Origin: a virus
Strand: one strand, 5' to 3'
IMG/VR virus record: IMGVR_UViG_3300028925_002833
Coordinates: 1-20,344 of that record
DNA: 20,344 bases
Part shown: piece by piece, positions 14,947 through 17,404 of the stretch
Position numbering within the stretch: position 1 is the stretch's first letter
Layout: each line of letters starts with the position of its first letter
Program-made: the position numbers and the translations under genes
Notes under the pieces: generated by a model
What the model was told of the DNA's origin: nothing
The model's database searches: none
What the model saw: the letters and a program-made list of their open reading frames with translations, nothing else

Positions 14947-15077
14947 TGAATAAAAGTAAAAGAACAAAGTTAAAAGGTCATCCAGTAAAAAAAATGATTA
15001 CTCTTAAAATGATGATTGCAAGGTCCGTTTATAATAATAGAGTTAAAAAGTCTAGACTAAACAGAAGAGGTAAATGA
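14946..15077 (+). CDS. 43-aa highly basic miniprotein
   Basis: Begins at TAATG with the previous stop and ends at ATGA with the next start. The product starts MNKSKRTKLKGHPVKKMITL and ends NRRGK; about a third of residues are Lys or Arg. Probably binds nucleic acid or is a small ribonucleoprotein-like factor; no specific evidence. The double coupling supports real translation. Confidence 0.6.
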   Translation: MNKSKRTKLKGHPVKKMITLKMMIARSVYNNRVKKSRLNRRGK

Positions 15078-15481
15078 TGTGGAATTTACTTAAAGCCTCA
15101 ATGCATGACCCATTTGTTGGGTTATATGCTTTATACGATAAAAGAGATGAACTTTTGTATATTGGCCACTCAACAGAAGTGCCTAAGAGAGTCCGCCTCC
15201 ACGATAAAAAACATGAATATGCTAAATATAAAAAGATAAAAAGCTTAACTGAAGCTAGAGCTTTAGAGGAAAAATTAATTAGAAGACTAAAGCCTTGGCT
15301 CAATAAAGACTTTACACGAGTAGAGTCAGAGACTAAGCGATTCTCTTGTTTTTTAGATTTAGATGTATGGAGAGCAATAAAGATTAAACACGCATTAAAA
15401 GACGTTACTGTATCCGATATAGTAAACGAAGCATTACGAGAACAACTTGAAAGGTGGGTAGAAATTGGTAACAAAGCATAA
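15074..15481 (+). CDS. GIY-YIG nuclease fused to a ribbon-helix-helix domain
   Basis: 135 residues; ATG 15074 or, with better spacing from GAGG (15066-15069), ATG 15077. Residues 15-78 form a GIY-YIG nuclease core: GLY (16-18), YIG (29-31), Arg39/Arg41 (PKRVRLH), Glu65 (ALEEKLIRRLKP) and Asn77. Residues about 89-129 (RFSCFLDLDVWRAIKIKHAL then KDVTVSDIVNEALREQLERW) match a ribbon-helix-helix strand and two helices, the CopG/Arc-type DNA-binding fold. RHH domains bind DNA as dimers, so this is probably a sequence-targeted nicking or cleaving enzyme. It could be a free-standing homing-type nuclease, a nuclease against competing phages or a processing enzyme. Confidence 0.75.
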   Translation: MMWNLLKASMHDPFVGLYALYDKRDELLYIGHSTEVPKRVRLHDKKHEYAKYKKIKSLTEARALEEKLIRRLKPWLNKDFTRVESETKRFSCFLDLDVWRAIKIKHALKDVTVSDIVNEALREQLERWVEIGNKA

Positions 15482-15623: not shown

Positions 15624-16239
15624 GCTTAAAGATGGTTCGAGGGTTAAAGGGGTTACGACAATCCTTAATAACCTAGGTTGGAATAAGAATGTATTAATTG
15701 CTTGGTCTAGGAGAATGGCTTTATCTGGAGAAGATCCAGATGCGGTGTTGAAGGAAGCTGGAGCGATTGGGACACTGACTCATTATCTATGTGAGTGTGA
15801 TATAAAAGGCGAGGAAGCAGACACCGAAGATTATTCGGCAGAGCAGATAGAAAAAGCAGAGAATGCTTTTCTAGGCTACCTGGAATGGAAGAAGATTACT
15901 AAGCCCAAGTATGAAGCTATCGAATTAAAGATGGTGTCTGAAAAATATAAAGTAGGCGGAACTACCGACTTCATTGCAAATATAAATGGGTCTTTAGTTC
16001 TTGGCGATTTTAAAACTAGCAAAGGTCTGTACCCAGAGATGACTGCTCAATTAGCAGCTTATCGTAAGATGTATCTGGAGATAAATCCAAAGGTAAAGAT
16101 TGAGTCGGCTATGGTCTTAAGGCTTGATAAGAATAATGGTGCTTTTAGCCATCACTTTATTGGAAAGCCACAGTTAGACTGGGGTTGGAAAGTATTTAAG
16201 TGTTGCCTGGAATTAGAAGAATTGCATAAGGAAGTATAA
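15592..16239 (+). CDS. RecB/Cas4-like PD-(D/E)XK exonuclease
   Basis: 215 residues. Motifs in order: His64 (LTHYLCE), an acidic residue around Glu111-Glu117, Asp126 (VGGTTDFIANI), Asp139 and Lys141 (LVLGDFKTSK), and Gln153 with Tyr157 (TAQLAAYRKM), the last being the QxxxY motif of RecB-type nucleases. Lambda exonuclease and Cas4 relatives share this order, but no Cys cluster for an Fe-S centre is evident. With the SSB and Hjc-like genes it forms a recombination/repair set. An annealing protein partner is not recognisable in the window. The stop TAA shares its last base with the following ATG. Confidence 0.8.
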   Translation: MAKTKAHTAYKLKDGSRVKGVTTILNNLGWNKNVLIAWSRRMALSGEDPDAVLKEAGAIGTLTHYLCECDIKGEEADTEDYSAEQIEKAENAFLGYLEWKKITKPKYEAIELKMVSEKYKVGGTTDFIANINGSLVLGDFKTSKGLYPEMTAQLAAYRKMYLEINPKVKIESAMVLRLDKNNGAFSHHFIGKPQLDWGWKVFKCCLELEELHKEV

Positions 16240-17318
16240 TGTGGATAATACCCAAGAACTTACCCATCTATCGTTATGCACAGGATACGAAGGCATTGGG
16301 AGTGGACTCAGAAGAGTTTTCCCAAATGTCAGAGAACTCGCTTATGTGGAGATCGAAGCCTTCGCTATCGCAAACTTGGTTGCGAAGATGGAAGAGGGTT
16401 TCTTACATCCAGCGCCTATCTACACAAACCTTAAAACCTTCCCATACAAAGAGTTTTGTGGAAAAGTGGACTTCCTCTCTGCGGGATTCCCATGTCAACC
16501 CTTCTCACAGGCTGGTCGCAGAGCTTCCACAGACGATCCTCGACACCTTTACCCCCACATCGCAAAGGGAATCTCGCAGTGCAGACCAACTTATGTTATT
16601 CTCGAAAATGTCCAGGGGATTATCAGTAGCAAAACAGCCGATGGGGAGTCGGTACTCCAGTATGTCCTCGGAGATCTGGAAGAAAGAGGTTATAGAACAT
16701 CGTGGGGAATATTCTCTGCGGCTGAAATTGGCGCTCCACACCAGCGGAAGAGAGTCTTTATCATGGCCTACAGCGAGACTGAGTGATGGTGAGGGCGGTA
16801 GAATTGAGACTGTTCTCAATAAGACTGGTTTTAAAAGCAAAAGGAAAGCATCCAATCAATACTTTGGTGCAAAACTGAGGGATGCGGTGGAGACTTATGA
16901 GGAAACAAAATGGATAGAGTGCAAAGAATCGTCAACAGACTGCAAGGAGAAATCATGGCCGACACCAGCAGCACACGAAGCGAGATTGGGGTATCAAAGG
17001 AGACACGCAGGAGCGAAGGGTACTCAGAAGTCACTAACGACAGTAGTAATCGAGGATGGCCTGCAAGACCGGGACAAGAGCAGTACGAATGGGAAGAGCC
17101 AAGAGTCGTGGGCGACACCAACGCACCAAGACTCAAGGATCGGACCAAACAATATAGGGGGGTCGAAGCATCGGAGAGAAAGGGGGAGCGAGGCATTGGC
17201 AGATCAAGCGATAAAGCCAAGCCCGAAAGCTACAGGGAAGCTCAATCCGAATTGGGTGGAACAGATGATGGGACTTCCGGTGGGGTGGACTCAGCTTCCA
17301 ACCGAGTGGATAGATTGA
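16239..17318 (+). CDS. 359-codon overprinted ORF with Trp-Pro-Thr repeats, on top of the methyltransferase
   Basis: ATG 16239 follows AAGGAAG (16228-16234) and overlaps the preceding stop (TAATG), the coupling used throughout this operon. The frame is open for 1080 bases. The C-terminal half looks like a real protein: WPTARLSDGEGG (176-187), SNQYFGAKLRDAVETYEE (205-222), WPTPAAHEARL (240-250), WATPTHQDSR (291-300) and KLNPNWVEQMMGLPVGWTQL (334-353). Earlier parts such as RRWKRVSYIQRL and SFVEKWTSSLRDSHVNPSH are also familiar to me from phage proteins of unknown function carrying such W-P-T repeats. It overlaps both methyltransferase pieces almost completely. Function unknown; a methyltransferase-associated factor is a guess. 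An alternative is frameshift scrambling of one ancestral gene. Confidence 0.6.
   Translation: MWIIPKNLPIYRYAQDTKALGVDSEEFSQMSENSLMWRSKPSLSQTWLRRWKRVSYIQRLSTQTLKPSHTKSFVEKWTSSLRDSHVNPSHRLVAELPQTILDTFTPTSQRESRSADQLMLFSKMSRGLSVAKQPMGSRYSSMSSEIWKKEVIEHRGEYSLRLKLALHTSGRESLSWPTARLSDGEGGRIETVLNKTGFKSKRKASNQYFGAKLRDAVETYEETKWIECKESSTDCKEKSWPTPAAHEARLGYQRRHAGAKGTQKSLTTVVIEDGLQDRDKSSTNGKSQESWATPTHQDSRIGPNNIGGSKHRRERGSEALADQAIKPSPKATGKLNPNWVEQMMGLPVGWTQLPTEWID
16241..16786 (+). CDS. C5-cytosine DNA methyltransferase, catalytic part (motifs I-VIII)
   Basis: 181 residues starting at GTG 16241. Visible motifs: I, LSLCTGYEGIGSGL (10-23, SAM binding); II, the acidic pair near 37-39; IV, AGFPCQPFSQAG with catalytic Cys85; VI, ENV (122-124); VIII, QRKRVF (168-173). 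The frame then meets TGA 16784-16786, so target recognition, IX and X are absent from this polypeptide. Six more in-frame stops follow (16790, 16799, 16805, 16820, 16832, 16898) before the same frame reopens as the C-terminal piece at 16955. It is richer in G+C than its neighbours (28 of 60 bases at 16561-16620, against 20 of 60 at 18241-18300). Split enzymes of this kind exist (M.AquI); decay is the alternative. Confidence 0.85.
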   Translation: MDNTQELTHLSLCTGYEGIGSGLRRVFPNVRELAYVEIEAFAIANLVAKMEEGFLHPAPIYTNLKTFPYKEFCGKVDFLSAGFPCQPFSQAGRRASTDDPRHLYPHIAKGISQCRPTYVILENVQGIISSKTADGESVLQYVLGDLEERGYRTSWGIFSAAEIGAPHQRKRVFIMAYSETE

Positions 17319-17404
17319 GATTATTAGGGAATGGGGTAGTGCCGCAAGTGGCAGAAAGAGCAATCAGAGTTTTATTAAGGAGACTACACGATGAACATAT
17401 GTGA
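16955..17404 (+). CDS. C5-cytosine methyltransferase, C-terminal piece (target recognition and motif X)
   Basis: 149 residues in the same frame as the catalytic part. ATG 16955 has AAGGAG at 16944-16949 with 5 bases spacing, a near-perfect SD; ATG 16910 is also in frame. The segment GWPARPGQEQYEWEEPRVVG (34-53) is the kind of sequence found in the C-terminal region of phage cytosine methyltransferases, and RVDRLRLLGNGVVPQVAERA (117-136) is the motif X region that completes the SAM-binding fold. Co-expressed with the 16241-16786 product it could rebuild an active enzyme, as the two subunits of M.AquI do. It overlaps the 359-codon frame to 17318 and ends 14 bases into the next gene. Confidence 0.7.
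   Translation: MADTSSTRSEIGVSKETRRSEGYSEVTNDSSNRGWPARPGQEQYEWEEPRVVGDTNAPRLKDRTKQYRGVEASERKGERGIGRSSDKAKPESYREAQSELGGTDDGTSGGVDSASNRVDRLRLLGNGVVPQVAERAIRVLLRRLHDEHM

Follow-up and report, generated by a model that had tools for sequence, protein, structure and literature searches.

The small subunit of the cytosine methyltransferase M.EcoHK31I is reportedly read in another frame within the gene for the large subunit. M.EcoHK31I is a two-polypeptide C5-methyltransferase in which the alpha chain carries motifs I-VIII and X and the beta chain carries motif IX (PMC3404938, citing Lee et al. 1995). M.AquI is split between two genes, with motifs I-VIII on the first and motifs IX and X on the second (PMC3404938). 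Phage methylase genes of the ShiLan type hide an out-of-frame HNH endonuclease (PMC11855218). The principle of a methyltransferase split by reading frame is already known, both from M.EcoHK31I and from pairs of Paenibacillus phage genes annotated in two frames. Escherichia phage ESSI2 gp30/gp29 was also considered as a split pair and was dropped, as gp30 resembles an adenine methylase.

The locus described here lies in a viral DNA of 20,344 nucleotides (IMG/VR record IMGVR_UViG_3300028925_002833), referred to below as the window. It consists of a methyltransferase frame, A, and a second frame, B, which overlaps it; in the window, frame A is broken into two pieces, A1 and A2. If the frame arrangement reported for M.EcoHK31I is correct, that enzyme and this locus have in common a second subunit that lies in an alternative frame and overlaps the first; at this locus the overlapping frames are under dual constraint. 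B differs from the M.EcoHK31I small subunit in overlapping all of A from a common ATGTG start and in being as long as A, and in the clade of the window A itself is split, with motif X on a third open reading frame. Motif IX is placed on the second subunit in both. A subunit with motifs I-VIII and X and without IX is seen in the relatives with intact A, and the window has A1 and A2 instead. The joint placement of motifs IX and X on the second subunit, as in M.AquI, is absent from the window and occurs in two relatives (L176 and L132). The ShiLan-type proteins are likewise hidden in the other frame of a phage methylase gene, but they are encoded by a mobile insertion, are nucleases and form no part of the enzyme. 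What is new at this locus is that the overprint runs the full length from a start common to both frames, that there is a third piece (A2) with a putative ribosome-binding site of its own, and that evidence of dual coding extends across the family.

Related arrangements are found among phages. In Paenibacillus phage Bloom, genes 56/57 are annotated as two overlapping methyltransferase coding sequences in the same relative frames as in the window, one with motifs I-VIII and X and the other with WPT repeats and LNPDWVECLMGFPIGWT; the profiles of window B and Bloom B align with an hhalign probability of 99.2. Bloom differs in that A is continuous and B starts inside A, about where residue 74 of window B aligns. 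In other Paenibacillus larvae phages, too, the corresponding place holds a pair of "DNA cytosine methyltransferase" features. Mycobacterium phage Phasih gp65, a single-chain DNA methylase, matches phrog_363, the A family, over residues 1-405 and phrog_1008 over residues 249-407 (E 2e-48). It shares with the locus the A family, LPTP/STP repeats, HPAFPEWMMGWPAGW and GNGVVP, but everything lies in one frame and one chain and no overlapping partner is needed. In Streptomyces phage RemusLoopin, gp34 carries motifs I-VIII, while gp35 begins with the first LPTP and contains motifs IX and X. The two genes overlap by only 32 nt and X is with IX, whereas X in the window is in the A frame.

Layout of the locus and assignment of the motifs

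An initial annotation had proposed that a second full-length frame is overprinted on a DNA methyltransferase gene. Re-inspection of the open reading frames located that frame on the plus strand, as are all features of the locus given below. Frame B is open throughout, from an ATG at 16239 to a stop at 17318 (359 residues), and its start is well placed, 6 nt after a Shine-Dalgarno-like AAGGA (16228-16232) common to the B and A1 starts; the same pattern was matched in 32 of 47 loci. The three W-(P/A)-T repeats claimed for it are all present (W-P-T at 16764-16772 and 16956-16964, W-A-T at 17109-17117), as is its C-terminal end, KLNPNWVEQMMGLPVGWTQL / LNPNWVEQMMGLPVGWTQLPTEWID. Frame A is offset by two bases from B and starts with GTG at 16241. 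The B and A1 starts share a base in the overlapping ATGTG (16239-16243), and the ATG of B in turn shares sequence with the TAA that ends the exonuclease gene upstream, so that the string TAATGTG holds one stop and two starts. Elsewhere in the window, a protein with a GIY-YIG nuclease domain (15074-15481; Pfam E 6e-7) lies upstream of the exonuclease and methyltransferase, and a weak thioredoxin-like protein (337-708; Pfam E 0.0014, below the cut-off) lies near tail and lysis genes.

The motifs by which frame A had been recognised are in place (PCQ at 16490, ENV at 16604, QRKRV at 16742, GNGVVP at 17327). The frame is not continuous, however. It is broken up by seven stops (16784, 16790, 16799, 16805, 16820, 16832 and 16898) into two pieces, A1 (16241-16786), with motifs I-VIII, and A2, which carries motif X, is open from 16901 and ends at 17404. 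The initial annotation missed this break, and also the precedent of a two-subunit, frame-split methyltransferase. Its GNGVVP end (17327-17344) does belong to frame A but sits just beyond the stop of the 359-residue frame, outside the overlap. A1 contains the catalytic domain of a C5-cytosine DNA methyltransferase, with PCQ, ENV and QRxR (PF00145, E 1.3e-32), and its profile matches M.HhaI and M.HaeIII as far as motif VIII. The same two enzymes are the best structural matches of an AlphaFold model of an intact A protein (L048), in which residues 10-185 and 335-353 are mostly confident and residues 195-290 and 309-332 are poor.

Motifs IX and X do not share a chain in the window; X is on A2 after the stops and IX is only in B (16239-17318), which reads as a beta-like subunit with a variable region containing the WPT repeats. 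Residues 72-353 of B match phrog_1008, annotated as DNA methyltransferase (E 4.5e-12). The motif-IX-like LNPNWVEQMMGLPVGWTQL (17241-17297) aligns with the same stretch of Phasih gp65, and LNPNWVEQMMGLPVGW in B is taken as the motif IX of the second subunit through phrog_1008 and Phasih gp65. A direct match between B and the motif IX of single-chain enzymes extends over no more than 22 residues (hhalign probability 21-49%); the link therefore depends on phrog_1008 and on the position next to motif X. Among the loci examined, motif IX was never found in frame A and was found in frame B only. Motif X is inside frame B in L096, L132 and L176, and such freedom to lie on one chain or the other makes little sense if the two chains are not parts of a single enzyme.

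B could nevertheless be a gene in its own right, such as an inhibitor, an anti-restriction factor or a regulator, and share no more than its DNA with the methyltransferase. Roughly half of B covers the catalytic core, and its first ~175 residues, unlike anything in the known cases, have no counterpart in the single-chain enzymes, so a different role for part of B is possible. No Pfam family was found for B and no solved structural relative in a PDB profile search, and an AlphaFold model of B alone (pLDDT 50) is not confident and is uninformative. This reading is nevertheless very unlikely, for the locus has no other motif IX than that in B, B falls within a methyltransferase family, Phasih gp65 unites that family with the A family in one chain, and B takes up motif X in three relatives. 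Among the roles first guessed for B, a partner or specificity factor fits best, because motif IX is missing from A and present in B, and the two are united in the single-chain relative; no observation suggests an inhibitor.

Several relatives vary in these regions. In L178:1771-3261, a Paenibacillus plasmid, B has two LNPxWVECLMGFP copies and A has a matching duplicated SLGRVxDGLS, as if the motif IX segment had been duplicated, to judge from the sequence. Frame B of L151:4136-4461 has two NPRWVEVLMGL motifs about 290 bases apart. The variable region of B in L007:3001-4563 has an extra stretch, TSIKELDDKTDIKKSTIEHWFRYDTSGFSYPSIEDW, which resembles an insertion in other methylases.

Evidence for coding in both frames

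A scan of viral contigs with B returned 80 loci, and both frames, with motif IX in B, were located in 72 of those examined; the ATGTG start is present in 70 of the 72. A narrow scan of bacterial genomes with the B profile gave 14 loci. An alternate frame on the same strand as a conserved protein may stay open and seem conserved, and B could in principle be a shadow ORF arising in this way from the conservation of frame A. When the codons of the window were shuffled without altering the A1 protein or its codon usage, B remained open in 0.2% of shuffles (P = 0.002), and shuffles preserving the A protein gave P <= 0.017 for an open B in each of 47 non-redundant loci. Because these 47 loci had been chosen by B, the test was repeated on loci fetched with the A alignment alone. 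Across the catalytic core, B was open in 54 of 56 non-redundant loci selected in this manner, against 2.75 expected from shuffles, and the third frame was open in none of the 56.

The third position of an A codon is the second position of a B codon, so four-fold sites of A are expected to be conserved if B is constrained. Among A codons with the same first two bases, 0.66 of the four-fold sites in the overlap were identical at 70-80% protein identity. Within A1, the identical fraction was 0.46 even below 50% protein identity, where 0.24 was expected. Some wobble bases in the A1 overlap are invariant (CCT 47/47, GCT 42/42). In the single-frame control, motif X beyond the end of B, four-fold identity was only 0.27. 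This control is a short region from 15 loci; it was used in place of a synonymous control from upstream genes, which was dropped because those genes differ in most loci.

The explanation of B as a shadow ORF is already contradicted, as the constraint exceeds that of the host frame alone: openness in the loci chosen by A is far above that of codon shuffles, wobble conservation exceeds that of the motif X control, and B keeps its frame where A is broken. On this comparative evidence frame B is a genuine gene, and purifying selection acts on both frames. The initial proposal of a stable overprinted gene pair is strongly supported by the homologs, the overlap conserved across them, and the four-fold sites and substitution positions, which indicate dual coding. 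In L139, L165 and L059, a stop interrupts B inside the A1 overlap and the remainder of B is recognisable; these interruptions could be sequencing errors or a split B.

Alternation of the frames and the break in frame A

Judged by the codon positions at which nucleotides differ, the frame that governs substitutions changes along the region after motif VIII. The variable region evolves as B, with a fraction of 0.58-0.63 of the differences at the third position of B whether A is open or broken. Substitutions in the WPxRPGxxQYxWEEPR box (WPARPGQEQYEWEEPR in frame A of the window, 17057-17104) follow A (0.53 at A position 3), those in motif IX follow B (0.65) and those in motif X follow A (0.57). 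In most relatives A is free of stops. Where A is intact, its variable region contains no stops although shuffles preserving B expect 3-13 (P <= 0.024 each), while in the window seven are found and 10.8 are expected, so A is no longer kept open in that region. The stops are not a sequencing error, because a 99%-identical copy from another metagenome (L001) has the same ones, and a number of diverged relatives are likewise broken directly behind motif VIII.

A number of stops close to that of B-preserving shuffles between motif VIII and the WP box is also what would be seen if the methyltransferase were decaying in the clade of the window, with A broken and only B still useful. Such decay is very unlikely, since A1 and A2 are both open and conserved in diverged relatives that share the break (L002, L006-L009, L015, L016, L058 and L143), and A2 often has an ATG and an upstream AAGGAG. 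In the window, A2 (16955-17404, with the WPARPG box and motif X) is preceded by AAGGAG at 16944-16949, likely its ribosome-binding site, 5 nt before the ATG at 16955; an alternative ATG is at 16910. The assignment of A2 is supported by its A-frame substitution pattern and, when tested from 16910, by matches to phrog_363 (E 1e-6) and to phrog_1008 (E 4.4e-6), the latter at the end of the profile. AAGGAG also stands ahead of an A2 ATG in L002, L006 and L143. Independent translation of A2, as inferred from these start and ribosome-binding signals, is likely and not certain because the sole start codon available ahead of the WP box in L008 and L009 is TTG.

The pieces could alternatively be joined by ribosomal frameshifting into a single chain of A1, B and A2 like Phasih gp65, and passing from A to B and back to A would restore the motif order of a single-chain enzyme. 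An inspection by eye, which was not systematic, showed no slippery sequence at 16784 or near 17310. Frameshifting is hard to reconcile with the conserved ATG and Shine-Dalgarno sequence that B owns, with A1 and B being open along one and the same stretch, a feature that frameshifting would not require, and with the lack of any stop in A in most relatives; it has little to recommend it.

Proposed enzyme and history of the overlap

The locus is best explained as one phage C5-cytosine DNA methyltransferase split by reading frame (probability roughly 0.85), with expression, assembly and activity inferred. A1, as the catalytic domain, would provide cofactor binding and catalysis. B, starting from the ATG that overlaps the GTG of A1, would be its partner, with a variable target-recognition region and motif IX. 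Motif X would be supplied by the A frame: most relatives have it at the C-terminal end of an unbroken A protein, and the clade of the window probably has it on a small protein apart, A2, which has a ribosome-binding site to itself. The pieces may assemble into an active enzyme as in M.EcoHK31I, and the one ribosome-binding site at TAATGTG could set the ratio of B to A1 protein. Methylation would probably guard the DNA of the phage against restriction by the host; the 20 kb window has no recognised gene for a restriction enzyme. That all three pieces are translated and assemble, and that the methylation is protective, is inferred. A more specific proposal is tentative, at somewhat less than even odds: A1, B and A2 are three proteins of a two-frame enzyme made from 1.17 kb, and the N-terminal ~175 residues of B are new protein sequence, written over the catalytic core of the partner of B and kept for a role that single-chain methyltransferases lack, such as subunit docking or a stoichiometry set by the start codons.

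The overprinted partners would then be two parts of one enzyme and not two unrelated proteins, in a case that is widespread. The relatives show apparent intermediate stages, namely a single chain, a split with a short overlap, a partial overlap, a full overlap and three pieces, which makes the origin of a long overprinted gene traceable. A history from single chain to split to partial overlap to full overlap is plausible, with the direction inferred and without a tree. Two near-identical Synechococcus phage genes (L082 and L177) are annotated in one frame only in each record, the B frame in Ssp-JY39 ("hypothetical protein") and the A frame in Yong-M2-251 ("cytosine-specific DNA methyltransferase"), and half of many phage methyltransferases is therefore probably missing from databases or called hypothetical.
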